A stretch of DNA of 64,000 nt. It comes from Niallia circulans. GTDB taxonomy: Bacteria > Bacillota > Bacilli > Bacillales > Cytobacillaceae. Under the pieces are notes generated by a model that did not search any database, had not been told where the DNA came from, and saw nothing but the letters and a program-made list of their open reading frames with translations. This document shows, piece after piece, positions 10,960-58,303 of the stretch; the first letter of the stretch is position 1, and every line of letters begins with the position of its first letter. Where the stretch lies: contig NZ_RIBP01000004.1 of the NCBI RefSeq assembly GCF_007273535.1, positions 1,030,001 through 1,094,000 on the forward strand, read 5' to 3'. A program made the position numbers and the translations under genes.

Positions 10960-11739
10960 TTGAAGAAAAAATTAGGATTGCTATTTGGTCTATTATTTTT
11001 AATGGCTATTTTAACTGGGTGTACAGAGTTTAATCAGCCAATCACTTCAGACAGTGAAGGCTTTTGGAATGAATATATTGTTTATCCATTGTCTATGCTC
11101 ATCATCAAAACAGCAGAAATTGCCGGCGGAAACTTTGGTGTTTCCATAATTATCGTAACGATTTTGGTTCGTCTTGTAATTTTGCCGTTAATGATTAAGC
11201 AAACAAAAAACAGCAAAGCAATGCAGGCAGTACAGCCTGAAATGGAAGCATTAAGAAAAAAATATAGCTCTAAGGATCAAAAGACACAGCAAAAGCTCCA
11301 AGAAGAAACAATGAAGCTTTTCCAAGAAAACAAAGTGAATCCACTGGCTGGATGTTTCCCATTGATCGTTCAAATGCCAATTTTAATCGGATTCTACCAT
11401 GCAATCTCACGTACAAGGGAAATTGCGCAGCATGAATTCTTATGGTTTAATTTAGGTCAGCCAGATCCGTTCTACCTACTGCCGATTATTGCAGGGATAA
11501 CGACATTTATTCAAACAAAAATGACTATGGCTGGTACTGCAGGCCAAAACCCGCAAATGGTTATGATGCAATATATTATGCCTATCATGATTTTAGTATT
11601 TGCAATTAACTTCCCAGCAGCACTTTCATTATATTGGGTTGTAGGTAATATTTTCACAATTATCCAAACGTATTTCATTAAAGGACCAGAGCTGAAGAAG
11701 CCTGGCCAAACAGGAAAATTGGAGGGAGCTAAAAAGTGA
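10960..11739 (+). CDS. spoIIIJ: Membrane protein insertase YidC1/SpoIIIJ
   Basis: YidC/Oxa1-family insertase for membrane proteins; in B. subtilis SpoIIIJ is also needed for sigma-G activity in the forespore. 259 residues. A lipoprotein signal ends in LTGC with C21. The YidC core follows with about five membrane segments and the cytoplasmic loop rich in K/Q (about 95-130). The start is TTG at 10960 with AGGAGG nine bases upstream. The stop overlaps the jag start by three bases, so the two are translationally coupled. Confidence 0.96.
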
Positions 11740-45315: not shown

Positions 45316-46278
45316 ATGAAAAAAGTTGAACGGATTAATACTATTATGCGCTATATTAATAATCGTGCCCATTTTACCATTTCTGAAATCATGCAGGAAT
45401 TTCATATCTCCCGTTCGACTGCTGTTAGAGATATTAAAGAAATTGAAACAATGGGAATGCCGCTTGTTGCTGAGGTTGGAAGGGATGGGGGATATTATGT
45501 TATGAGCAATTCTGTCCTGCCTAATGTTCAGTTTACCGATAATGAGATAAAAGCGCTTTTTATTGCTTTTATGGCCACAAGAAATCAACAGCTTCCATAT
45601 TTGAAGAGTCGTCAGTCCTTGGCTGAAAAATTACTTGGTCTGCTTTCAGACAATCAGCAAGATGATTTAGTGTTATTAAATCAAATATTGCTTTTTGAAG
45701 GAACCAATCCGAATAATCCTGACCTCCTTGATTTATCAGATCTGCCTCATCCGATATTAGAAAAACTTATTCATATTCTCCTTGCAGATAGTTATTTACT
45801 GATTACTCTTAAAGAAGTGAAGGAAATTAAATCACTCCCGATTTTTCTTTTGCATCTTTATCGTGAAAAAAGTCTTTGGTTTATTGAAGGCTTTGACTTG
45901 AATGAGGAACAAAGAAGGATATTTCCTGTTGATAATCTCACCAATGTTGAACCATATTCAACAAAAAATAGAGTAAGTAAGAAAAAGATTCTAGATAAAC
46001 TAAATAATCAGCAGCAAGTAGTTAATCTTGTCATAGAACTTGGCCCAAAAGCGATTACGCAGTTTAAAAAATATCATCCTTTGAAAGCTTCCATTTCTTA
46101 TACAAATCCTTACCAAACAATAGCCATTTTAAAGACCTTTGTTAATGTTAATAATTCAGAAGAAGTAACTGACCTAACAAATTGGCTGCTTTTTTTAGGG
46201 AAAGATATCAAAGTTAGGAAAGTGCCAGAAGAAGTTTTAGAAGAGTTGAGAGAGAGAGAATGCTTATTCAATATATAG
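45316..46278 (+). CDS. YafY/DeoR-type HTH regulator with WYL-like domain
   Basis: 320 residues. N-terminal winged helix (about 1-60, FTISEIMQEFHISRSTAVRDIKEIETMGMPLVAEVGRDGGY) of the HTH_11 kind, then a WYL-type ligand-binding region (about 155-225, with FLLHLYREKSLWFIEGFDL) and a C-terminal domain. The arrangement with a divergent GyrI-like gene is common in Bacillaceae. ATG 45316 follows AGGAGAT. Ligand unknown. Confidence 0.88.
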   Translation: MKKVERINTIMRYINNRAHFTISEIMQEFHISRSTAVRDIKEIETMGMPLVAEVGRDGGYYVMSNSVLPNVQFTDNEIKALFIAFMATRNQQLPYLKSRQSLAEKLLGLLSDNQQDDLVLLNQILLFEGTNPNNPDLLDLSDLPHPILEKLIHILLADSYLLITLKEVKEIKSLPIFLLHLYREKSLWFIEGFDLNEEQRRIFPVDNLTNVEPYSTKNRVSKKKILDKLNNQQQVVNLVIELGPKAITQFKKYHPLKASISYTNPYQTIAILKTFVNVNNSEEVTDLTNWLLFLGKDIKVRKVPEEVLEELRERECLFNI

Positions 46279-46512
46279 GCAGGCTAACAGAATCTTCTAT
46301 TGAAGAAAGCTATAAGAATTGATAGCTAAGATATGTCAAAAATAGAACAATATGATTTTCATAGTAAATAATTTGAAGTTATATAGCTCTCTGTACTTTC
46401 TTAAAAAGAAAAGGCTGTATAAAATAAGAGAGTAGAAAAAGAGAATTTTTGAAAAAAAGGTAGTTTTTGTAGTAGTAGGTGATTAGAAGATAAAAAGTAG
46501 GGAGGAGTTTAA

Positions 46513-47748
46513 ATAAGTCCATTTCTTCAAATGGGGGCAAATGCAGCTTTAAGTTCTTCAAAGGGAAGTGTTACTGTTAGCTACGAAACTTCCAATAAAA
46601 TAGATATTTCTTTAACAGCATTTCTGTTAACTGATTTAGATAAGGTCCAAGGAGACAGTGGGATAATATTTTATAATCAGCCAAACAGTACTACAGGTTT
46701 AGCGAGCTTAATGCCTGCAGTGCAAGTAGGAAATAAAAAAATCCATAAGCTTAATTTTGATATGAGTAGAGCTCCAGAAGGTATAACTAAAGTAGCGATA
46801 ACTCTTACAGAAGATAATAATACCGGATTTGCAAATGTGAAGAACTTAAAGGCCGAGTTAGCTACGGATAATACTGTTATTCAGTTAACGCCGTCTAGTT
46901 TTACAAATGAAAATGGAATTGTAGTATTAGAATTATATGTAAGGAACGGTCAGCCAAAGGTTAGATCCATTTGGCGTGGTTTTGATTCTGGGCTTGAAGG
47001 ATTATGTATAAATTATGGTGTTGAAGTTGAACCGGAAGAACAAGATAAGCCGTCTGAACCTATAATTGTTCCAAAACAGACGCCAATAGCGGCAGATACT
47101 CTTGCAAGCAACAATGGAAAAAACACATTGGCAACGGTAAGCCTTGAAAAGGTTAAGGGGAAGATAAGCCTCGACAAAGGACAAAAGCCAGTTATCATTG
47201 ATAAAACACCTGAAATTACTGCTACTGTTTCTTGGAAGACAGGGACAGATTATGATATTTATGCTTTAGTTTATACCAAGAATGGTATGCAGGTTGATGT
47301 AGCTATGTTTGGTGCGAGAGGTGTACCACCACTTCGCAGTTATGGCAACGGAGCAATGGAGCATATGGGCGATGTAGGGAGAAATAGTAAATCAACAAAG
47401 ACTGAGGTTATTAAACTACGATTAAATGATGATATCCTCGCTGTTGTTCCTGTAGTTTATTCTGCGCAGTCCAATGGAACAGGCTCCTTCTACAGATATA
47501 AGGTATCTATGAGTATAGATAATCATAATGGGACATCTGTTACCATTACATCCAAAAACGCTAATAATAATGACAGAATCTATTCGTGTGTGCCTGGAAT
47601 TCTACATAATACGCAAGATGGAGTTATTATAAATCCACTGGAGCTTTATAGTATGCCGAACTCAGAGTATAGACCACAACTTAGGATGGGGTATTCAGGT
47701 ATGGTAGAAGTCCTAATGGATGAGGGACCAATTAATGATTATAAGTAG
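46513..47748 (+). CDS. Two-domain TerD-family stress protein, apparent ATA start
   Basis: N-terminal TerD-like domain (about 1-170; SPFLQMGANAALSS, GDSGIIFYNQ, NENGIVVLELYVRNGQPKVR) and C-terminal TerA/TerD-like domain (about 215-408; TATVSWKTGTDYDIYALV, MFGARGVPPL) joined by a Pro/Glu-rich linker. TerD domains bind calcium and occur in stress-response clusters. GGAGGAG at 46501-46507 lies 5 nt before ATA 46513, and the codon before ATA is a stop. The first ATG (46531) is 23 nt from the site, and using it would remove the SPFLQ residues that begin the domain. So initiation at ATA is likely. No other ter genes adjoin. Confidence 0.75.
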   Translation: MSPFLQMGANAALSSSKGSVTVSYETSNKIDISLTAFLLTDLDKVQGDSGIIFYNQPNSTTGLASLMPAVQVGNKKIHKLNFDMSRAPEGITKVAITLTEDNNTGFANVKNLKAELATDNTVIQLTPSSFTNENGIVVLELYVRNGQPKVRSIWRGFDSGLEGLCINYGVEVEPEEQDKPSEPIIVPKQTPIAADTLASNNGKNTLATVSLEKVKGKISLDKGQKPVIIDKTPEITATVSWKTGTDYDIYALVYTKNGMQVDVAMFGARGVPPLRSYGNGAMEHMGDVGRNSKSTKTEVIKLRLNDDILAVVPVVYSAQSNGTGSFYRYKVSMSIDNHNGTSVTITSKNANNNDRIYSCVPGILHNTQDGVIINPLELYSMPNSEYRPQLRMGYSGMVEVLMDEGPINDYK

Positions 47749-47778
47749 ATTAGACAATAGGATACTCTAAACAAAAAG

Positions 47779-47825
47779 AAGCAACACAGCAAAAGAATGA
47801 TGTCCTTTGCTGTGTTGCTTTTTAC
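47779..47825. terminator. Bidirectional terminator between TerD gene and nitroreductase
   Basis: 15-bp perfect stem AAGCAACACAGCAAA and its complement, 12-nt loop, A/T ends. Confidence 0.92.
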
Positions 47826-47835
47826 GCTTCACCTA

Positions 47836-48342
47836 TTACCATGTAGCAATTTGACTCTCAACATTTACAAGATTCTTTTTCGGAAGTTCGTCAAAATAAC
47901 CGAGACAAAGGATGCCTGCAATTCTTTCATCTTGCTGAATATCAATTAAGGATTGAATATCTTTATAGTCGTCGAGTTGCCAGGTCATGCCAATCTGATT
48001 TGCCCATGCAAGTAGTTGGATATTTTGAATGAAGCAACAAACAGCAGCAAAATCTTCATTCGTGATATGTACATCCTGACTCATTTTTGACGTAATGATT
48101 AAACAAACTGAGGAGTGAGCTATAGCTGCCTTTAATTGATGATCGTTTTCTTTAGTAAGATTTTGGGATAACTTCTGTTTTGTCTCGCTTGTAATGAATA
48201 TTACGTGCCATGGCTCGCGATTTTGATGATTAGGGGCCCAAGTGGCTTCATCCAAAATATTTAGTATTAATTCTTGGGGTATCTGTTTTTGGGAAAACTG
48301 ACTGACAGCACGCGTTTCTTGAAAAAGCGATGATAAGCTCAT
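47836..48342 (-). CDS. Nitroreductase-family flavoprotein (short)
   Basis: 168-residue NADH oxidase/flavin nitroreductase-like protein, somewhat shorter than the usual 180-210. Family features: TRAVSQFSQKQIPQELILNILDEATWAPNHQNREPW near the N-terminus (FMN-binding loop) and AGILCLGYFDELPKKN near the C-terminus. RBS GGAGG before ATG 48342. Last of four minus-strand genes that begin at a Fur box, so likely iron-regulated. A role as a ferric-ligand or cofactor reductase is inference. Confidence 0.85.
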   Translation of the reverse strand: MSLSSLFQETRAVSQFSQKQIPQELILNILDEATWAPNHQNREPWHVIFITSETKQKLSQNLTKENDHQLKAAIAHSSVCLIITSKMSQDVHITNEDFAAVCCFIQNIQLLAWANQIGMTWQLDDYKDIQSLIDIQQDERIAGILCLGYFDELPKKNLVNVESQIATW

Positions 48343-48387
48343 TTTTAATGCCTCCTTTTTTTCTCTAATAATGGGTAATGCCTCCGT

Positions 48388-48987
48388 TTATTTAAAGGTT
48401 AGTTTTTCTTTAATAGCTGTTCGGTGTTTGGAGTTGGGCATCTTCTTCCACTTACCAACATACATAATGCAGACAACTTGCTCCTGTTCATTTAAATCAA
48501 GTTTGTCTGTGAAAAGCTTGTTATAAATATATGGTTCTGTATTCCACACAGTTCCTAATTGGTGATCCCAAGCTAGTAAGGAAAAGCTTTGAAGGATGGC
48601 ACAGATTGCGGCATAGTTTTTGATACTCTCTTTTGTAGAGCCTTTTTGGATGGCAACCAAAAAGGCGGGGATTTGTGCAGTTCGTTTTATAAACATCTGC
48701 TTAAGCTTATTGGGCATTCTTCTATATAAACCATGCTCGGAAAAAGAGGCAATAATTCCAGCTGCTAAGCTTTCCTTGCCTTCTGGACTGGAAACTAGGA
48801 TAAAGCGACAAGCTGCTTCCTGCTGATCCAAAGCTGGTGATTGTATGGATAGTTGAAGCAGTTCTGTTATTTGTTGGGTTGAAACTGGATGTGTTTCAAA
48901 GCGGCGAATACTTCGCCGCTCTCTTATAAGACTAGCCATATTTTCAGCATTATTTATATTCGTTGTCAAAGTTAAATTTTTAATCAT
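48388..48987 (-). CDS. Nitroreductase-family flavoprotein
   Basis: 199-residue nitroreductase. Typical RERRSIRRFETHPVSTQQITELLQLSIQSPA at the N-terminus (phosphate-binding arginines for FMN), and VVCIMYVGKWKKMPNSKHR at the C-terminus. It is only distantly similar to the next gene, so the pair could form a heterodimer or act on different substrates. RBS AAAGGA precedes ATG 48987. Follows the ABC pair by 22 nt in the same presumed operon. Confidence 0.87.
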   Translation of the reverse strand: MIKNLTLTTNINNAENMASLIRERRSIRRFETHPVSTQQITELLQLSIQSPALDQQEAACRFILVSSPEGKESLAAGIIASFSEHGLYRRMPNKLKQMFIKRTAQIPAFLVAIQKGSTKESIKNYAAICAILQSFSLLAWDHQLGTVWNTEPYIYNKLFTDKLDLNEQEQVVCIMYVGKWKKMPNSKHRTAIKEKLTFK

Positions 48988-49009
48988 TTTCTACACTATC
49001 CTTTCCCGT

Positions 49010-50764
49010 TTATTTGTTAGACTCAACAAGATTAACACTCCAACCCATACTTTCTTGCTGGATATCCCAAAGTTTTGCATAAAGTCCTTTTTTGGCGAGC
49101 AAGTCTTCATGTGTTCCTTGTTCAGAAAGATTGCCATTATCCAGCACAATTATTTTGTTTGCTCCGGCAATTGTTTTTAATTTGTGGGCGATAACAATAA
49201 CGGTCCTATTTCTTACGAGTTCAGAAATAGCCTCTTGAATAAGAACTTCATTCTCAGGATCAATGGAGGCAGTAGCTTCATCTAATAAAACAATTGGTGC
49301 ATTTTTTAGAATTGCTCTAGCAATCGAAATCCGTTGTCGCTCTCCTCCAGATAAGGTGGAGCCATTTTCCCCAATAAGAGTTTCATAGCCATCACGCATT
49401 TTTTCAATAAATCCATCACACCTGGCCATTTTTGCGGCAGCAAATACCTCTTCATCTGTTGCCTCTTGTTTACCAATGCGAATATTATTTATAACTGTGT
49501 CATTAAAGAGCATAACTTCCTGAAAAACAAAGCTCATATAGCTCATTAAAGCTTCTGGATCAATGCTTCGAATGTTCTTGTTGCCTACCAATATTTCTCC
49601 ATTACTAACATCCCAGAATCTGGCTATTAACCGGGAAATGGTGCTTTTACCTGATCCTGAAGGACCCACAAGCGCTGTCACCGTGTTCTGCGGTATGGTG
49701 ATGTTCATGTTGTTTATAACGGAATCCTTGTTATATGCAAAGGAAACATTTTTAAATTCAATGCTGCAATCAGAAAGATTAACAGCTGTTTCACCTTCCA
49801 TTGCAGGCTCATTTCGTAGTTGCTTCATGCGCTTTGTTGAGGTGAAGAGATACATGATTTCAGTGAACATAGTTAAAATAACAAGGACGGGAGTATAAAT
49901 ACGGGTACTAATCATCGCGAATGTAAGAAATTTAACGACATCTAGACTGCCAGCAGTCAACAGATTGACGCCAACCAGTATGACAATGCCGATACCTACC
50001 TGTAAAATGACGGAAGCAAGGGTGATAAAGCTGCCAGCAATTGCTTCAAATTTTATCGATTCTTTCATCATTTGCTTGAGTGCCATTTTCAATACAGTCG
50101 ATTTTTCACCAGACAGACCAAATGCCTTAACAACTTTTATGCCATCTAAGTACTCCTGCATCTGTTTTGATACGTTTAATTTCGCCTTAACATGGCGTTT
50201 TCCAAACCTTTCCTGGATTTTTCGTGAAAGATAGATTATTCCCATGGAAATAGGAAGAACGAATAGTAAAGCAAGTGTCATACGCCAATCATAGAAGGCC
50301 AGTAAGATAGAGACAATCGTAATAGAAATGGAGTTTGCAACAATTTGCGGAATGGCATGGCTCACCATGTGTTCAATAGTAGTGCAGTCACCCATAATGT
50401 TTGTTGTTAGTTCCGACAAATCCTTCCGGTTGAAGAAGGAAAGGGGAAGCCTCCGCATATGTTCTGCAACCTTCATTCGCATATTCGTACTTTCAGCGTA
50501 TGCTGCGGTATAGGTCTTATCATATTCCATTCCGTAGACAAGAAAGTAAACTACGGCACTAATTACGCCAAATCCGAAAAGAACCCATAGTCTGCTTGTA
50601 TCCAAAGGTTCATTTGTAACGAGTGGATCAATGATAGTCTGCATGGTGAGCATGATAATCATCAAAGGTACGAAAAGGACTAGATTAGACAGTACACAGA
50701 AAAAAATTGCTTGTTTTAAATCCTTTGTACCTTTTTCGGAGAGATGTAGAAGTCTACTAAGCAT
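49010..50764 (-). CDS. ABC transporter, fused permease/ATPase (second subunit)
   Basis: 584-residue type-IV (exporter-fold) half transporter. Six membrane helices in about 18-300, then the nucleotide-binding domain with Walker A GPSGSGKST, signature LSGGERQRISIARAIL and Walker B DEATASIDPENE. Its start overlaps the end of the upstream half transporter by 8 nt, so they form a heterodimer. The C-terminal tail LWDIQQESMGWSV resembles the partner's. The family includes siderophore importers IrtAB and YbtPQ, which have exporter folds. Confidence 0.9.
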   Translation of the reverse strand: MLSRLLHLSEKGTKDLKQAIFFCVLSNLVLFVPLMIIMLTMQTIIDPLVTNEPLDTSRLWVLFGFGVISAVVYFLVYGMEYDKTYTAAYAESTNMRMKVAEHMRRLPLSFFNRKDLSELTTNIMGDCTTIEHMVSHAIPQIVANSISITIVSILLAFYDWRMTLALLFVLPISMGIIYLSRKIQERFGKRHVKAKLNVSKQMQEYLDGIKVVKAFGLSGEKSTVLKMALKQMMKESIKFEAIAGSFITLASVILQVGIGIVILVGVNLLTAGSLDVVKFLTFAMISTRIYTPVLVILTMFTEIMYLFTSTKRMKQLRNEPAMEGETAVNLSDCSIEFKNVSFAYNKDSVINNMNITIPQNTVTALVGPSGSGKSTISRLIARFWDVSNGEILVGNKNIRSIDPEALMSYMSFVFQEVMLFNDTVINNIRIGKQEATDEEVFAAAKMARCDGFIEKMRDGYETLIGENGSTLSGGERQRISIARAILKNAPIVLLDEATASIDPENEVLIQEAISELVRNRTVIVIAHKLKTIAGANKIIVLDNGNLSEQGTHEDLLAKKGLYAKLWDIQQESMGWSVNLVESNK

Positions 50765-52586
50765 TGTTTTGTACCTGCCTTTCTTCTGCGATTGTCCAGC
50801 TCATTGCTGAAGTATATTGATCCCACATATGACGGTACCGTCCACCAAGGGATATAAGGGTATCATGTTTGCCTTCTTCCATTAGCTTGCCTTCATTAAT
50901 AACAAGAATATTGTCTGACCCCTTCACAGTAGAAAGTCTATGTGCGATTAGAATGACCGTTTTATTTTTCATGAGTTTTTCAAAGGCCAACTGCACCTTG
51001 TGCTCGTTCTCCGGATCAGCAAAGGCAGTAGCTTCATCAAGGACGATGATAGGAGCATCTTTAAGAATGGCTCTCGCAATGGCAATCCTCTGTTTTTCAC
51101 CGCCAGAAAGCTGAATATTACTAGCCCCAATCACTGTGTCATATCCATTAGGCATCTTTTCAATGAACTCGTGGCACTGAGCTGCTTTTGCAGCTGCAAT
51201 TACCTCAGTACGGCTTGCACTTTTGTTTCCAATCATGATATTTTCCAGAATGCTTTGCTGGAATAAAAAAACATCCTGGAATACAAAACTGACAATACTC
51301 ATTAAGTAATCAGTGGACATTTTTTTAATATTCACCCCGCCAATTTTGATACTTCCTTTACTTACATCATAAAAACGTGGAATTAAATGGGCGATTGTAC
51401 TTTTGCCAGAGCCAGATGGCCCTACTAAAGCAGTTACCTCGTTCTGTTTAGCAATAAAACTAATGTCAGACAGTGCTTCTGAATCCTCATAAGAGAAGCT
51501 TACATTCTCAAAGCTGATATTAAAATTGGTTGTTTTCTCTGGATTTTGCGATTCAGGCAATGGTTTTTCTTGAAATATTTTATCCATACGCTCAATACCG
51601 TCGGCAATTTGCCTTCCCGTTTGAGAGACGTACATAAGCTTGAGAAAAGGGGTAGTTATGGCAACAGAGAAAATTAGATAGAAAAGAACAGCCATAGAAA
51701 ATCTAGGATAATCAGTTATATCAGTCGAAATCCAGATAACTACGGGAATAAGGAAAATATAGATGTTATTTAAGATGACTAAAAAGAGCAAATATGCATT
51801 TTTATATGCTTTTGTATAGGCAAGTGCAAAATCTCCATATGATTTAATAGAAGTATAAAATTTTCTAAAAGAGTAGATGGTTTGGCCAAACGCTTTAATA
51901 ACAGATATGCCGCGGATATACTCTACAGATTGATTGTTCATATCTTCTAGCGAATCTTGGTAGATTTTCATAAATTCGGATGATTTTTTACCCATATAAA
52001 GTGCTTGAATGACATACAAGCTGATAATTGGAAAGAGTGTAGCCAGGCCCAGTCGCCAATCAAACCCTAATAAAATGATTAAAACGACAATTGGTGTAGC
52101 AAATGAACCGATAATATCAGGAAGCTGGTGAGCAATAAATCCTTCAATCTTTTCGATATTTTCATCGACAACCTTGCGCAGCTTTCCTGTTGAATTTTGT
52201 GTGTAGAAGCCAAGAGGTAAACTTGCGAGATGATTGACAAATGCTAGTTTTAAATTATACAACGTTTGAAAAGCGGCAAGATGTGAACACATTAATGCAA
52301 TGAAATTAAGGAGGATGGCACCGACAGCAGATCCTCCAGCAAGCCAGCCAAGCTTTATGATATAACTGCCGTTAATTATGCTTAAATCGGACAAATTGTA
52401 TGCTAATTCGCGAATGATGTAGTAGATGGAAAGGAACGGGATAAATGAAACTGCTACGCTAACAACAGATAGTATACATGAAGTCACGACAAGGGCTTTT
52501 TTAGTAAAAGCAAGCTCCCACATACGTTTCATTCCGTTAGCTGCTTGTTTATGCTGCTGTTCGCTTTGTGTACTTAAACTGGACAT
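50757..52586 (-). CDS. ABC transporter, fused permease/ATPase (first subunit)
   Basis: 609-residue half transporter, first gene after the Fur box. Membrane domain about 30-320, nucleotide-binding domain with Walker A GPSGSGKST, signature LSGGEKQRIAIARAIL and Walker B DEATAFADPENE, the latter variant being common in the YbtP/YbtQ/IrtA-like group. RBS AAGGAGGAAT precedes ATG 52586. With the overlapping partner it most likely moves a ferric siderophore or another iron-linked compound. Direction and substrate are inference. Confidence 0.9.
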   Translation of the reverse strand: MSSLSTQSEQQHKQAANGMKRMWELAFTKKALVVTSCILSVVSVAVSFIPFLSIYYIIRELAYNLSDLSIINGSYIIKLGWLAGGSAVGAILLNFIALMCSHLAAFQTLYNLKLAFVNHLASLPLGFYTQNSTGKLRKVVDENIEKIEGFIAHQLPDIIGSFATPIVVLIILLGFDWRLGLATLFPIISLYVIQALYMGKKSSEFMKIYQDSLEDMNNQSVEYIRGISVIKAFGQTIYSFRKFYTSIKSYGDFALAYTKAYKNAYLLFLVILNNIYIFLIPVVIWISTDITDYPRFSMAVLFYLIFSVAITTPFLKLMYVSQTGRQIADGIERMDKIFQEKPLPESQNPEKTTNFNISFENVSFSYEDSEALSDISFIAKQNEVTALVGPSGSGKSTIAHLIPRFYDVSKGSIKIGGVNIKKMSTDYLMSIVSFVFQDVFLFQQSILENIMIGNKSASRTEVIAAAKAAQCHEFIEKMPNGYDTVIGASNIQLSGGEKQRIAIARAILKDAPIIVLDEATAFADPENEHKVQLAFEKLMKNKTVILIAHRLSTVKGSDNILVINEGKLMEEGKHDTLISLGGRYRHMWDQYTSAMSWTIAEERQVQNNA

Positions 52587-52643
52587 ACTATTCCTCCTTT
52601 AATATTAGGTAGAAAAAACTCTCTGCACTGGTAGAGTGCTTCA

Positions 52644-52680
52644 TTTACTATTGATAATGAGAATCATTATCAATAGTAAA
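52644..52680. promoter_or_regulatory. Fur box inside a 37-bp palindrome with symmetric divergent promoters
   Basis: 16-bp arms TTTACTATTGATAATG and its exact complement flank a 5-nt centre. The core 52653-52671 matches the 19-bp Fur consensus GATAATGATAATCATTATC at 18 of 19 positions. Because of the symmetry each strand also reads TTGATA-17 bp-TAGTAA, a plausible -35/-10 pair overlapping the operator. It lies 58 bp from the ABC start and 170 bp from the lipoprotein start, so both units are likely iron-repressed. Confidence 0.88.
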
Positions 52681-52849
52681 TATTAGTCCTTTTTCATTTT
52701 TCTGTCAACAGTTATTTCCAATATTGGTAGCAAAAAGATGATGGATAATGTGGATGCTCGAATTTATAGTTTGTTTATATTTGCGATATAAGGAGTTTAG
52801 TTATTGTCTCTACAATAAAAGTAAGCAAATCATAAAGGAGAGATAAATA

Positions 52850-53818
52850 ATGAATAAGAAGTTCATGATGACAGCAATCACTTTGGCTAGTTCAATCACT
52901 TTAATGTCAGCGTGCGGTAATATAACAAGTAAGGAGACTGGTGAAAATTCAGCACCTGAGACTCATCAGACAGTTGAGGAAAGTGCAGAACAACAACTGA
53001 CAAAAGGCCAAAAAATGGCGAATATATTAGGCAGTACAAACTGGCAGGGTACTCGTGTTTATGATAAGGATAATAATGATCTCACAAAAGAGAATACTGG
53101 TTTTATCGGTTTAGCAAAGTACGATGCGGAGACTGGGCACTATGAATTTTTTGATTCCCAAACAGGGGAGACACGCGGTGATGAAGGGACGTTCTTTATG
53201 TCGAATGATGGAATGAAACGCATACTCATTTCCAAAACGATGAATTATCAAGCGGTTGTCGAAATAACAGAATTAGACGAGGAGATGTTTACGTATAAAC
53301 GTATGGGAAAAGACGCGGATAATAATGATATAGAGGTTTTTGTGGAGCATAGACCTTTTGCTGACAATAATTTAAGCTTCTCCACAGCTGATCAACCTTT
53401 AACTGCTTCAACAGGAGAGATTATAATTGATAAGGATGGAGATAACATCCTTGGTTCAAGGTTATGGCAAGGAACAAAGGCATTGGATGAAGAAGGAAAT
53501 GATGTCACCATGTATAATGAGAACTATATCAGTCTTGCTAAGTTCGATAAGGATACGAATCAATATGAGTTCTTTTCTTTAGAAACAGGTGAGAGCAGAG
53601 GTGATTATGGTTACTTTAATGTAATTAATAACAATAAGGTTCGTGCACATATGTCTATTGGTGAAAATAAATATGGTGCAGCATTGGAGCTTACAGAGTT
53701 AAATCAAATTAAATTCACATATAAACGTGTTGGTAAGGATGCCGACGGAAATGATATTACCATCTTTGTGGAGCATGAGCCATATAAGGGAGAATTAACG
53801 CCAGTTTTTGGATTTTAA
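52850..53818 (+). CDS. Lipoprotein with two DUF4822 repeats
   Basis: 322-residue lipoprotein: signal peptide with lipobox LMSAC and C22 as the lipidated cysteine, then two DUF4822 domains at about 59-170 and 200-314. The repeats share LGSxxWQGT, EFF, TGExRGD, FTYKRxGKDADxND and VFVEH-type motifs, so they arose by duplication. AAAGGAGA precedes ATG 52850. It diverges from the ABC pair across the Fur box and precedes a two-component system. Function unknown; it may bind a ligand at the membrane. Confidence 0.85.
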   Translation: MNKKFMMTAITLASSITLMSACGNITSKETGENSAPETHQTVEESAEQQLTKGQKMANILGSTNWQGTRVYDKDNNDLTKENTGFIGLAKYDAETGHYEFFDSQTGETRGDEGTFFMSNDGMKRILISKTMNYQAVVEITELDEEMFTYKRMGKDADNNDIEVFVEHRPFADNNLSFSTADQPLTASTGEIIIDKDGDNILGSRLWQGTKALDEEGNDVTMYNENYISLAKFDKDTNQYEFFSLETGESRGDYGYFNVINNNKVRAHMSIGENKYGAALELTELNQIKFTYKRVGKDADGNDITIFVEHEPYKGELTPVFGF

Positions 53819-53856
53819 GTAAGTAGAAAACTCCTTACTTGAAAAAGGAGACTAAG

Positions 53857-55308
53857 ATGACCATAAAAAATCGATTTTTAACTTCATATCTTGGCGGTAT
53901 TGTTATAGCGAGTGTCTCCATTCTTGCCCTGCTCTGCATTGTTTTTTATGTTACGACGGGTACAGTACCAACACCGAAAACATGGTATCAAACCTTTACG
54001 AAGCAACGCTCCTTAAGTCCTGAAGAGGAGCTTGCTTATGTGGAGCTGCGTAATATTGCGAAGACGAATCCAGATACACTCTTAGAGAAGGGGATCGTAA
54101 CCGACTTGCAAAAAATGGAGGAGAAGTCTCTTGGTGTTGTCATTCGTCATGATGAGAGTATTTTATATTATTCAAAAGGGTTAGTAGAGAAATCTCTTGT
54201 TGTTCATTTTCCAGTTTTTGATACGAATAATATTGAAACAAAAGGAACGATAGATAATGCAGGCAGAATGTATCGTTATATAAAGTTTGATTTTTATTAT
54301 AGTGATCTGTCAAAGGGAAGCATTCTTGTTTTAAAAAAGGAAAATAACCTTTTAGAGTTTTTTACTAAATGGGGAGTTACAATTAGTATCGTTATTATTC
54401 TTGTTTCCATCACTGCAATGCTTTTTTTAAACCAGCTTTTGCATAGGACAATTATCAAGCCTTTAGAAAATTTGGGACAGTTCATGTCTGAATTACGTGG
54501 GGAAAGTCTGCAAAGCAAAACACCAGCCTTACCTGCCAATACAGCAAAGGAAGTACAGCAGCTGACAGCTAATTTTGAAAGTATGCGCACAACCCTGTTA
54601 GCCTCTATCCAAGAGCAGCAGAATCTTGAAAATAATCGAAAGGAGTTAGTTGCAAGTATTTCTCATGATTTAAAAACACCCATTACCTCCATTATTGGTT
54701 ATATTGAAGGCTTGCAGGAGGGAATTGCTGATACACCTGCAAAGCAGGAAAAGTATTTACAGACAATCCATTCAAAATCGATTGCTCTAAATCGTTTAAT
54801 TGAAGAGTTGTTTCTTTATTCTAAACTCGATGCGGAGGCTGTGCCTTTCCATTTTGAACGGATCCAGCTGGAGAAATTTCTTGTACATATGTCAGAGGAA
54901 TTTCAATTGGACAACAGAGATGTTCAATTTCAGGTAAGTGTACGTGAAGATATGTATGCATCAATTGATCGCATGCAAATGAACAGGGCTATTAATAATT
55001 TATTTGAAAATAGCTTAAAGTTTAAAAAGACTGATGAAACGTTATGTATAACATTAGAAGTTACGGAAAATGCAGATAGGTTAGAGATTCATGTAAAGGA
55101 TAATGGGCAGGGAATTGCCGAGGCTCAACTTCCCTATGTATTTGATCATTTTTACCGTGGAGAGGCAGCACGAACATTTACAACAGGGGGCAGCGGGTTA
55201 GGGCTTGCCATTGTGAAGCAAATCGTTGAAAAACATCAAGGCCATGTGGAAATTCAAAGTAAATTGCATTATGGCACTAAAGTGATAATAATACTCGCAA
55301 GAGCGTAA
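53857..55308 (+). CDS. Sensor histidine kinase
   Basis: 483 residues from ATG 53857, which has GGAG at good spacing (TTG 53839 upstream lacks one). Two membrane helices (about 10-35 and 170-195) enclose an extracellular sensor of about 130 residues. HAMP and HisKA follow with H270 in SISHDLKTPITSIIGYIEGL, then the HATPase with NNLFENSLKFKK, DNGQGI and GSGLGLAIVKQIVEKH. Begins 38 nt after the DUF4822 lipoprotein and ends 15 nt before its regulator; the lipoprotein may be a sensor accessory. Confidence 0.93.
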   Translation: MTIKNRFLTSYLGGIVIASVSILALLCIVFYVTTGTVPTPKTWYQTFTKQRSLSPEEELAYVELRNIAKTNPDTLLEKGIVTDLQKMEEKSLGVVIRHDESILYYSKGLVEKSLVVHFPVFDTNNIETKGTIDNAGRMYRYIKFDFYYSDLSKGSILVLKKENNLLEFFTKWGVTISIVIILVSITAMLFLNQLLHRTIIKPLENLGQFMSELRGESLQSKTPALPANTAKEVQQLTANFESMRTTLLASIQEQQNLENNRKELVASISHDLKTPITSIIGYIEGLQEGIADTPAKQEKYLQTIHSKSIALNRLIEELFLYSKLDAEAVPFHFERIQLEKFLVHMSEEFQLDNRDVQFQVSVREDMYASIDRMQMNRAINNLFENSLKFKKTDETLCITLEVTENADRLEIHVKDNGQGIAEAQLPYVFDHFYRGEAARTFTTGGSGLGLAIVKQIVEKHQGHVEIQSKLHYGTKVIIILARA

Positions 55309-55323
55309 GGAAGGTGTCAATTA

Positions 55324-56019
55324 ATGGTGCCATCACGAATATTAATCATAGAAGATGATGTAAGTATTGCCGAATTACAAAGGGACTATTTGGAGATACA
55401 TCAAATGGTAGCGGAGATTGAAACAGATGGATTAAAAGGGGTAAATCGGGCATTAACTGAGCCATACGATTTAATAGTCATTGACTTAATGCTTCCTTCA
55501 CTTGATGGTTTTGAAATCTGTCGACGGATTCGTGAGAAGAAAAATATTCCCTTAATGATTGTCTCAGCGAAAAAGGAAGATATCGATAAAATAAGGGGTC
55601 TTGGATTAGGTGCAGATGATTATATGACAAAGCCATTTAGTCCAAGTGAACTTATTGCACGAGTACAGGCGCATATTAAAAGGTTTAAGCTACTAACAGG
55701 CATGGGAAACTCACAGGAAATAATCGAGAAGAAAAATATCTTAGTAGATAAAGGAGCACGTAAAGTATTCATTTTAGGACAGGAGTTTATTTTCCCGACA
55801 AGAGAATTTGATTTACTCATATTTTTTATGGAGCACCCAAACCGCGTCTGGACAAAGGAGCAGCTTTTTCGGCAAGTTTGGTATATGGACGATTTAGATG
55901 GTGATGTTTTTACAGTCGTTGTCCACGTTGGCAGGATTAGAGAAAAATTTAAAAAGGGAAAACTGTCAGAGTCACCTATAGAGACAATATGGGGAAGTGG
56001 ATATCGGTTTAATAGCTAA
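55324..56019 (+). CDS. OmpR-family response regulator
   Basis: 231 residues. Receiver with D11/D12, phosphoacceptor D54 (IVIDLMLPSLDG) and the TKPFSPSEL lysine, then a winged helix (FPTREFDLLIFFMEHPNRVWTKEQLFRQVW ... HVGRIREKFKKG). Cognate of the preceding kinase. The GTG/ATG start context is AAGGTGTCAATTA before ATG 55324. Targets unknown, possibly the neighbouring lipoprotein gene. Confidence 0.93.
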   Translation: MVPSRILIIEDDVSIAELQRDYLEIHQMVAEIETDGLKGVNRALTEPYDLIVIDLMLPSLDGFEICRRIREKKNIPLMIVSAKKEDIDKIRGLGLGADDYMTKPFSPSELIARVQAHIKRFKLLTGMGNSQEIIEKKNILVDKGARKVFILGQEFIFPTREFDLLIFFMEHPNRVWTKEQLFRQVWYMDDLDGDVFTVVVHVGRIREKFKKGKLSESPIETIWGSGYRFNS

Positions 56020-56323
56020 AGGTAAAAAAGTTTCACATGAAACATTTTAGCAAGTAAGAATTGGTGAAAAGCATTGTTCGTCTTAAAGAAGGAGTTCGAT
56101 TTGGAATCGAACTCCTCTTTATATTTACTTAATATTAATGGGGAAGATAATCCATCAAACCTGTTTTTAAAATTTTTTATTAAGAAAGGAAATATCCCGG
56201 TTTAGTGATTCTAACTCCTTAAAAACATCTATCCTAAGCAGGTTCCCCATTGTACTTAATTCCGTACTTATAAAACAACTCCAAACATATTCTTATAAAA
56301 GAAAATCGGAGGAGGTCGAAGCA
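56020..56323. other. 304-bp gap with parS-like half match and terminator
   Basis: Contains a degenerate parS-like palindrome at 56029-56044, a terminator at 56091-56125 and otherwise AT-rich DNA up to the next gene's ribosome binding site. Confidence 0.5.
56091..56125 (+). terminator. Terminator of the two-component operon
   Basis: GGAGTTCGATT/AATCGAACTCC 11-bp stem, 3-nt loop, then T-rich. Confidence 0.85.
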
Positions 56324-57730
56324 GTGAAAAAGGTTAATGTTCGGTTACAGCCGATTGTAAGTAGGATTAATTTACCTACTGTGTTGAAAACAGCTGTACT
56401 TCCTGGTGACACTGTTGAGAGATTATTTATTGCTACCCAGTTGGGTGAAATTTTTTATGTAGGTGAGGAGGAGGTAAGAACTTTTTTAGATATTAGTCCT
56501 CAGGTTATTAAATTGGGTTCTGAAGGTGGATATGATGAACGGGGCTTATTGGGACTTGCGTTTCACCCGGACTTTACTCATAATGGTTTGTTCTATCTAC
56601 ATTATTCTGTAGCTGGTACACAAGGGTCAGGCGTAGAGCCTAAAGATTTTAAGCCTGAGCCTTGTAATCCTAAAGCATTGAACTTGAGATGGACAAATAG
56701 GGAATCTCAATATGATCATATTGATACGGTCGAAGAATGGGGATTACAGTCAAATGGGCATCCAAAAAAGCTGCGGATATTGCTTAACTTAAGAAGACCT
56801 TTTTCGAATCATAATGGGGTTAACAGCTTAAATTTTTCCCCTGAAACCGGGAAGCTTGTTTTTACAAATGGAGATGGCGGGTCAGGCTATGATCCATTTA
56901 ATTTAAGTCAGGATGACATGGAGATTGCCGGCAAGATAATAGAAATAGATGTTAGAAAGAATACCTACACTAATAATCCACCTATAGTTACTCGTTTTAA
57001 TGAACTGCCCCGAGCCAGTCAGGAACTGCTCACAGTGATGGCAAAAGGGGTTCGTAATATACCAGGCATTTCTTTTCAAAAGGTTTATAATCAGTACATT
57101 AAATATACAGGAAATGTCGGGCAAGAATTAGTCGAGTCAATTTTTGCTTTTAATCATTATAACCCAATACCAGTTACACAGCTTGTTAAAGCATCTGATA
57201 TGAATGCTAAGCTTAACCAAAAAGGATTGGTAAACCTAGGCTGGCGAGGGTGGGAAGGCGATTTTCCTACAGCAATTATAAGAGATTGTAGTAATAATCC
57301 AGCGTTTGATCAGAAAATTTTCGCTTTTTATAATGAAGCAGTAGCACTATCCGGGAGTCGCCTTCAGCCTTTAACTAGCTACTTTCATGAAGATCCAAGA
57401 CCTGATAAGTTTGGTGGAACAGCACTTACCGGAATTCAGTTTTATATGGGCAATGCCATTCCTGGTTTAACAGGAAAGGTAGTCTTTACAGATGTTGTGC
57501 GGAAGGATTCGAAACCAAAAAGAGGGACTTTAGCATATACGTCGTTAAAACCAGACGGTAAACAAAACGACTTTAGTGTGATTCATGCTGACTATGATTT
57601 TGGCACACAATCAGCATATTATGTTAGTTTAGGCGCAAATCTTAATCAAACTAAATTATACTTAGGGGTTTTTGGCTCTATGAAAGTGACAGATTATAAC
57701 CAAGGAACCATTTTTGAGATAGTGCCATGA
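56324..57730 (+). CDS. Glucose/sorbosone dehydrogenase-like beta-propeller protein
   Basis: 468 residues related to soluble PQQ glucose/sorbosone dehydrogenases (GSDH). Visible features: RLFIATQLGEIFYVG, RGLLGLAFHPDFTHNGLFYLHYS, GDGGSGYDPFN and GWRGWEGDFP. No signal peptide or membrane helix, unlike most secreted members, so it may be cytoplasmic or a spore-layer protein. The start is GTG 56324 behind GGAGGAGG. Length suits the family. PQQ use cannot be judged from sequence alone. Confidence 0.8.
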   Translation: MKKVNVRLQPIVSRINLPTVLKTAVLPGDTVERLFIATQLGEIFYVGEEEVRTFLDISPQVIKLGSEGGYDERGLLGLAFHPDFTHNGLFYLHYSVAGTQGSGVEPKDFKPEPCNPKALNLRWTNRESQYDHIDTVEEWGLQSNGHPKKLRILLNLRRPFSNHNGVNSLNFSPETGKLVFTNGDGGSGYDPFNLSQDDMEIAGKIIEIDVRKNTYTNNPPIVTRFNELPRASQELLTVMAKGVRNIPGISFQKVYNQYIKYTGNVGQELVESIFAFNHYNPIPVTQLVKASDMNAKLNQKGLVNLGWRGWEGDFPTAIIRDCSNNPAFDQKIFAFYNEAVALSGSRLQPLTSYFHEDPRPDKFGGTALTGIQFYMGNAIPGLTGKVVFTDVVRKDSKPKRGTLAYTSLKPDGKQNDFSVIHADYDFGTQSAYYVSLGANLNQTKLYLGVFGSMKVTDYNQGTIFEIVP

Positions 57731-57742
57731 TTGGTGATTTAG

Positions 57743-58303
57743 TTAATAAAGTCCTCTTAATCTTCTAAATAGGAGTAATGCAATTTCAACCCATAACCAG
57801 CTGTAAAGGAAAGAAAAGATAAAGATTATTCCGAATGTAAGTAGTGAAAAAGAATTAGAGATGGTCGGTCCTAAAATTGGAAAGCGTAAAATAAACAATA
57901 ATGTACTTATTCCTAACGTTAAAGAAAAAGCTCCAGTAACAATAATGCTTAATCTTGACTTAAGGAGGTAAAAGGACAGCCCAATACCAAGTCCTAATAA
58001 CCCTGTTGTAAAAGGAAACACAATTAGTTCGGTTGGCTGCAGGATGAATAATAATAGTATTGCTTGCAAAAAGGCCATCGCTCCAAATGGAACGGACAGC
58101 ATGGAATATAACAATATTGGTGCTGTGGCAAGGGGGCTTAAAAGATACCCAATACCAGGGAAAGAACCGCCAGCAGATTGAAAAATAGCTGCAAAACAAG
58201 CGAAAATTGATCCTAATATAAGCTTTTTTGTTTTTGTATGTTTAGTAAAGAAGGTTTGTTGAGCTAACTGGACATCGGTGGAAATAGCCTTGAATAAATA
58301 CAT
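57743..58303 (-). CDS. Integral membrane protein of unknown function
   Basis: 186 residues, about five to six membrane helices (LILGSIFACFAAIFQSAGG, LLSPLATAPILLYSMLSVPF, FLQAILLLFILQPTELIVFP, IIVTGAFSLTLGISTLLFIL, LLTFGIIFIFSFLYSWLWVE). The pattern of a helix pair with SAGGSFPGIGYLLSPLAT recalls small ECF-like or biotin-transporter-like folds, but I cannot assign it. GAGGTG precedes ATG 58303. Convergent with the dehydrogenase-like gene. Confidence 0.7.
   Translation of the reverse strand: MYLFKAISTDVQLAQQTFFTKHTKTKKLILGSIFACFAAIFQSAGGSFPGIGYLLSPLATAPILLYSMLSVPFGAMAFLQAILLLFILQPTELIVFPFTTGLLGLGIGLSFYLLKSRLSIIVTGAFSLTLGISTLLFILRFPILGPTISNSFSLLTFGIIFIFSFLYSWLWVEIALLLFRRLRGLY

Follow-up and report, generated by a model that had tools for sequence, protein, structure and literature searches.

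YbtPQ and IrtAB, the importers of yersiniabactin and mycobactin, are heterodimeric ATP-binding cassette (ABC) transporters with an exporter fold, and IrtA carries a fused reductase domain. Another YbtPQ-like pair, EqbKL of S. equi, is described as part of a Firmicute iron locus, within a nonribosomal peptide synthetase cluster for a siderophore and with a DtxR-like regulator, EqbA (PMC3672683). Some proteins of the nitroreductase family have a reported link to Fur: NtrA of S. aureus is described as Fur-regulated and required for the use of staphyloferrin A (PMC9598555, PMC7139808), YfhC of B. pumilus and B. subtilis is placed in the putative Fur regulon of B. pumilus (PMC3896406), and lmo0485 of Listeria is listed with a Fur box (PMC4481299). 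The E. faecalis genes EF0372-EF0376 combine the two-component system RR13/HK13 with DUF4822 proteins; RR13 is reported as 'potentially important' and HK13 as non-essential (PMC7701990), and the kinase gene EF0373 is reported to have risen in blood (PMC2766626). Here we analysed a locus of Niallia circulans, contained in a stretch of 64,000 nucleotides (contig NZ_RIBP01000004.1, positions 1,030,001 to 1,094,000; hereafter the window, to which all positions refer), in which two ABC half transporters (ABC-A and ABC-B) and two nitroreductases (NTR2 and NTR1) are encoded leftward, and a DUF4822 lipoprotein, a sensor kinase and a response regulator rightward, of a palindrome that holds a putative Fur box. 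The gene set most likely consists of two modules and not of one machine. Our preferred reading, to which we give a probability of about two in three, is that a Fur-repressed importer of ferric chelates with its own reductases meets head to head an independent DUF4822 module for envelope sensing.

The first-pass annotation of this DNA had reported a perfect interrupted palindrome of 37 bp at 52644-52680 between the divergent gene sets; the palindrome was confirmed there, with a length of 39 bp (52643-52681), and was the longest perfect one in the window when centres of up to 3 nt were allowed. The near-consensus Fur box reported in the same place also stood: its core, GATAATGAGAATCATTATC, showed one mismatch to the 19-bp Fur consensus, and 0.10 matches with up to three mismatches would be expected by chance in the window. 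A promoter scan, which gave three promoter-like sites in the region against 1.5 expected from shuffled sequences, placed a consensus promoter in the leftward direction at 52708-52680. The palindrome started inside the -10 hexamer of this promoter and spanned the expected start site, and the end of the box core was 66 nt from the ABC-A start codon and about 180 nt from that of the DUF4822 gene. The putative Fur box overlaps the leftward, ABC-A promoter, and Fur is predicted to bind there; the promoter element of the DUF4822 gene (see below) was found about 95 bp beyond the box on the rightward side.

Similar sites were present elsewhere in the 5.46-Mb genome. The exact 19-mer of the box core occurred at one other place, and with up to three mismatches it occurred 32 times in the forward and 29 times in the reverse orientation, against 12 and 6 for a reversed control pattern. 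Fourteen other sites were inspected (every other place with up to two mismatches, 10 in number, and four hand-picked from the three-mismatch list), and 17 genes adjoining them were run through Pfam. Iron-type genes adjoined nine of the 14 sites, and six of the 10 with up to two mismatches: FecCD, Peripla_BP_2 at four sites (one of them an AraC fusion beside an esterase), NEAT, flavodoxin, an ABM monooxygenase, and an ABC ATPase by a pyridine-nucleotide oxidoreductase, flavodoxin and ABM being scored as iron-type by judgement. The NEAT and ABM families are linked to heme.

Pfam searches agreed with the families proposed earlier for the genes on both sides of the palindrome, and ABC-A and ABC-B were two adjacent half transporters, each with a fused membrane domain and ATPase. 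When searched against solved structures, a profile of the ABC-A membrane domain (12 sequences) scored 88.9 bits with YbtP and 66-80 with IrtA, the next being Sav1866 with 33.6; the domain as a single sequence gave 67.5 with IrtA, 63.5 with YbtP and 50.1 with the next. We group the ABC-A membrane domain with the siderophore importers because in the profile search the YbtP and IrtA scores far exceed that of Sav1866. By the same kind of comparison ABC-B is ambiguous between importers and exporters and not clearly of the YbtPQ/IrtAB clade, so that the resemblance to IrtAB and YbtPQ pointed out at first was strong for one subunit and weak for the other. Likewise the Walker B variant that had been ascribed to the heterodimer, DEATAFADPENE, was found in ABC-A alone, the equivalent in ABC-B being DEATASIDPENE. 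In YbtP, F510 is described as lying in the D-loop and E506 as the Glu+4 residue (PMC10967856); the position of E506 is the place of F in the ABC-A motif.

Among 151 genomes of the family, including all 13 available for the genus, a close ABC-A was present in the genome of the window alone (1334 bits with itself, against 287 bits and 32% identity in the best other genome). Homologues with up to 78% identity came mostly from Clostridia and metagenomes, and some from spirochaetes, Coriobacteria and archaea. ABC-B followed ABC-A in 40 of 43 loci of these relatives, the remaining three ending at the boundary of the stretch, and an AraC-type regulator was identified by Pfam upstream of ABC-A relatives at both loci tested (L048 and L083). 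We compared 57 ABC loci with flanks of up to 10 kb, although some contigs were short and some loci matched weakly and in the ATPase part alone; among the 40 loci with both subunits, 36 extended at least 2 kb past ABC-B. No match to NTR1, NTR2 or DUF4822 was found at any of the 57 (tblastn, E up to 1e-6), and on this ground we rejected the idea that nitroreductases regularly accompany transporters of this family. Two further observations concern the distribution of the pair. A Bathyarchaeota bin contained close relatives of both subunits and Methanolapillus a close relative of ABC-A, so either the family extends into archaea or the Bathyarchaeota bin is mixed. A locus of Lachnotalea (L061, 4519-8092) had a second pair, 37-39% identical, on the opposite strand and adjoining the first.

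A putative link to Fur was also seen in the relatives of NTR2. A database search that required shared words of five residues gave nine relatives, eight of them with E<1e-30, and a profile search across the class found matches with E up to 1e-25 in 110 of the 398 genomes covered. From the 20 best loci of the latter we excluded the window's own; 14 of the remaining 19 had a 7-1-7 Fur box (up to two mismatches, within 900 bp upstream) and none of 20 downstream controls of equal length did. One locus scored as a miss (L180) had a 19-mer box with one mismatch about 950 bp upstream, seen in a larger stretch of it. In a second sample, the nine best other loci of an order-wide search, the box was present at five, against 0 of 10 controls. 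These counts suggest that NTR2 is a member of a nitroreductase family repeatedly linked to Fur. Relatives of NTR2 and NTR1 adjoined each other in five of 10 larger loci, and at one of these (L186) the pair was preceded by an AraC regulator and a perfect Fur box, TGATAATTATTATCA. The resemblance noted to NtrA, YfhC and lmo0485 is one of family and Fur box, and at the present locus, in contrast to those cases, the nitroreductase pair stands in one gene row with a transporter. A literature search of titles and abstract openings showed no evident operon joining a nitroreductase with a YbtP- or IrtA-type transporter, and nothing was found in it on a Fur-regulated nitroreductase with an ABC transporter in Paenibacillus. 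The suggestion made at first that separate flavoproteins could carry out the reduction is strengthened by the Fur-linked NTR2 relatives and by the precedent of NtrA. An order-wide search with a 53%-identical NTR2 relative, from Bacillus sp. FJAT-50079, gave nothing nearer to it than NTR2 of the window. Some details of the larger loci may be added: the gene row in four of them (L189-L192) consisted of a gene of 160-176 aa (with a MarR domain in L191), NTR2 and NTR1, with a Fur box of 0 to 3 mismatches about 600 bp before NTR2; and in L193 (8623-14491) a nitroreductase gene was flanked by an ABC ATPase gene on one side and a Peripla_BP_2 gene on the other, FecCD being close by, and a one-mismatch Fur box lay at 11093.

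The genes to the right of the palindrome recurred without the transporter. DUF4822 proteins were present in 18 of 397 genomes of the order, the window's included, and in two of 61 genomes of the family, a draw that missed three genomes of the same genus that carry them. Twenty other DUF4822 loci were compared: 18 found in the order search, one in a family genome and one in a stretch of E. faecalis. Both the regulator and the kinase were in the stretch at 13 of them, in some a few genes off, and an ankyrin protein, defined by cluster and by Pfam for one member, was present at 17; no ankyrin-repeat protein was found among the window proteins scanned with Pfam, from 45316 to 57730. The E. faecalis stretch, assigned to EF0372-EF0376 by the protein lengths given in PMC1876623, had the order regulator, kinase, three DUF4822 genes and ankyrin protein; its products were 63% (regulator), 47% (kinase) and 60% (DUF4822) identical to those of the window. 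It differed from the window in having three DUF4822 genes, divergent kinase genes and the ankyrin protein after them, and no match to ABC-A or ABC-B was found in it at the search cut-offs. In one report (PMC11925238) OG1RF_10264 is a malate quinone oxidoreductase in the text and a DUF4822 protein in a table.

Upstream of DUF4822 and ankyrin operons in Bacillales and E. faecalis (L123-L142), EF0374 among them, we found the same promoter element as upstream of the DUF4822 gene of the window: TTTA repeats at a phase of about 11 bp that end in AGGAGTTTA and are followed by a -10 candidate. With one mismatch allowed, 12 of 19 module heads had this 9-mer, compared with 14 of 213 control ORFs (open reading frames); the automatic anchor was misplaced at about three of these heads. 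When a matrix was derived from the 19 heads, none of which came from the genus of the window, it ranked 52767-52802 first in the whole window, with a score of 10.8 against 6.9 for the next site. The regulator of EF0372 type may bind at this element. In the relatives, the 400 bp before the DUF4822 and kinase genes contained no Fur box with up to two mismatches, save for one AT-rich match at the third paralogue of E. faecalis, and none of the 17 ankyrin genes had such a box upstream. Together the lipoprotein, kinase and regulator are a recurrent module of Bacilli and probably an independent system for sensing the envelope.

Two sister species (G103 and G066) carried TerD, a decayed NTR1 and the DUF4822-kinase-regulator genes in this order, and lacked the equivalent of window positions 48300-52753 (about 4.45 kb), that is, the first codons of NTR1, all of NTR2 and of the ABC pair, the leftward promoter and the palindrome. 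The right edge of the junction fell on the identical base in both and the left edge was equal within about 10 bp. Their NTR1 remnants (L162, 9930-10540; L163, 10480-11120) had stops and deletions. The ratio of nonsynonymous to synonymous substitution rates in the sisters was 0.21-0.23 for DUF4822, 0.07-0.09 for the kinase and 0.09-0.12 for the regulator, with 0.18-0.20 for TerD and 0.14-0.17 for GSDH in the flanks; judged by these ratios, the three genes of the module are kept under purifying selection in the two species that lack the left operon. The decayed remnants speak against the view that only this strain acquired the ABC operon, by its insertion at the DUF4822 locus, and NTR1 and DUF4822 were already neighbours in the common ancestor of the three sister species, if not earlier. 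A deletion in the sisters' ancestor is simpler than an insertion because the NTR1 remnants have a common left edge within about 10 bp, and the simplest history would be that the left operon was lost once, in the two sisters' ancestor, and that the right module persisted. The left operon appears to be patchily inherited and was probably gained from outside the family. The expectation that the whole neighbourhood would be conserved elsewhere did not hold in the genomes searched, although the remnants show that part of it was present in the ancestor of the three sisters. Another genome of the genus (G099; L165, 8334-14203) had a zinc dehydrogenase and DUF6270 upstream of DUF4822, and no TerD match in the stretch.

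According to the preferred reading, Fur with Fe2+ would occupy the palindrome over the -10 hexamer and start site and shut off the row ABC-A, ABC-B, NTR2 and NTR1. At low iron Fur would depart, and the YbtPQ/IrtAB-like heterodimer would carry a ferric chelate inward with no dedicated binding protein; the two nitroreductases, using NAD(P)H and flavin, would then free the iron either by reducing Fe(III) to Fe(II) or by attacking the carrier. The lipoprotein, kinase and regulator would sense the envelope, expressed from their own promoter element and probably self-regulated, and their closeness to the importer would be incidental. We go further only tentatively, at something short of an even chance, in proposing that the four-gene operon unites import with reductive release of iron, that the nitroreductase pair replaces the fused flavin reductase of IrtA, a domain absent from this ABC pair, that a clostridial-type transporter was here joined to a recurrent, Fur-linked nitroreductase pair of Bacilli, and that the operator of the DUF4822 module is conserved across Bacillales and Enterococcus, so that its regulon would be predictable. 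If true, the locus would be a modular version of the single-protein solution of IrtA, an exporter-fold importer with separate reductases, and finding the Fur-linked nitroreductase pair in another genome could point to the use of ferric chelates there. The little-characterised sensor module of EF0372/EF0373 type, with its calycin-like DUF4822 lipoproteins, would be set apart from iron uptake and supplied with a candidate regulator-binding element.

Several observations weigh against this reading. Only one genome is known to combine this ABC pair with nitroreductases. Five of the 14 other Fur-box-like sites had no iron-type gene found: they adjoined a luciferase-like monooxygenase (at the sole other exact copy of the 19-mer), a Crp-like regulator, DUF2573 and a weak IDEAL match, and the fifth (L146) had no gene start within 400 bp. 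A single genus supplied nine of the 14 NTR2 loci with a Fur box; the box was present at nine of 12 loci within that genus and at five of seven outside it. Among ABC-A relatives, 32 of 38 had no 7-1-7 Fur box with up to two mismatches within 400 bp upstream; the six that did exceeded the 11 of 408 other ORFs (p=0.0016), which speaks for the reading, and there was an excess as well, eight of 38 against 37 of 408, when the same 15-mer was allowed three mismatches (p=0.027), but it was gone at one mismatch, where one of the 38 relatives and seven of the 408 ORFs had a box (p=0.51). An earlier 19-mer scan (300 bp upstream, up to three mismatches) had given 5 of 38 against 3 of 409 (p=0.00016), but it overlooks single 7-1-7 boxes and was replaced by the 15-mer scan. 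The test of the DUF4822 promoter element was not blind, because its anchor string was chosen after the window's copy had been seen.

The remaining adverse observations concern the direction of transport and bear on an alternative that we consider unlikely, in which the ABC pair exports, as a Fur-controlled efflux system for a siderophore or for toxic compounds that the nitroreductases detoxify. The pair has an exporter fold; the ABC-B membrane-domain profile (10 sequences) scored 55.3 bits with YbtQ, 53.6 with Sav1866 and 52.6 with BmrA, a single-sequence search with ABC-B placed Sav1866 first, and eukaryotic ABCB exporters led the full-length searches with both subunits. The authors of the EqbKL study suggest an efflux role for that pair (PMC3672683), and drug export is given as a possible second function of YbtPQ (PMC7876324). 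Efflux fits poorly with the membrane domain of ABC-A, which goes with YbtP and IrtA far above every listed exporter, and with the Fur link of the nitroreductase family. It also fits poorly with the operon's own genes, which, in contrast to the YbtPQ and IrtAB systems, include no siderophore synthesis gene, although no search for such genes was made beyond the operon.

We regard as improbable a single integrated system, the idea of the first-pass annotation, in which the DUF4822 lipoprotein would capture a ferric ligand for the ABC pair or present it to the kinase, and Fur would govern both sides. The genes are adjacent and have a common intergenic region, the NTR1-DUF4822 adjacency is old, and the structure 4kh8, matched here by DUF4822, stands in a table of calycin/lipocalin-fold neighbours (PMC7521688), so the protein could bind a small ligand. 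Nevertheless, the lipoprotein and kinase are probably not partners of the transporter, because their module recurs alone, has its own conserved promoter element, survives in the two sisters without the ABC genes and the box, and had no DUF4822 match at any of the 57 ABC loci. One Fur box for both sides can be discarded as well: the box overlaps the leftward promoter, no good box exists in relatives of the DUF4822 module apart from the AT-rich match, and the rightward operon has its own element. That the substrate is heme or another tetrapyrrole, degraded with the help of the nitroreductases, is more improbable still, since the best solved relatives of ABC-A import siderophores and NEAT and ABM genes with Fur boxes are already present in this genome, against which stand a weak, below-cut-off similarity of NTR1 to BluB and the statement in a review that NtrA and IruO can degrade heme (PMC7139808).

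Table 1 Features of the locus on both sides of the palindrome (window positions)
Feature	Position	Strand	Remarks
39-bp perfect palindrome (18-nt arms, 3-nt centre)	52643..52681		Fur box core 52653-52671
Sigma-A type promoter TTGACA-17-TAATAT, leftward operon	52680..52708	-	2 nt of -10 shared with palindrome
ABC-A, exporter-fold half transporter, 609 aa	50757..52586	-	Membrane domain nearest YbtP/IrtA; carries DEATAFADPENE
ABC-B, partner half transporter, 584 aa	49010..50764	-	Best half-transporter match YbtQ; near exporters in membrane domain
NTR2, nitroreductase-family protein, 199 aa	48388..48987	-	PF00881 above cut-off; Fur-linked family
NTR1, nitroreductase-family protein, 168 aa	47836..48342	-	PF00881 above cut-off; decayed remnants in two sister species
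DUF4822 module promoter element, possible response-regulator box	52767..52802	+	11-bp-phased TTTA repeats, end AGGAGTTTA at 52791-52799
TACAAT -10 candidate, downstream of DUF4822 promoter element	52811-52816	+	
DUF4822 lipoprotein, two DUF4822 domains, 322 aa	52850..53818	+	Pfam; lipobox judged by eye
Sensor histidine kinase, 489 aa	53839..55308	+	Pfam; E. faecalis EF0373 counterpart by neighbourhood
OmpR-family response regulator, 231 aa	55324..56019	+	Pfam; E. faecalis EF0372 counterpart by neighbourhood

Downstream of the right module, the region 57743-58303 gave no Pfam match. The leftward genes were closely spaced, with an overlap of 8 nt between ABC-A and ABC-B and gaps of 22 nt between ABC-B and NTR2 and of 45 nt between NTR2 and NTR1.

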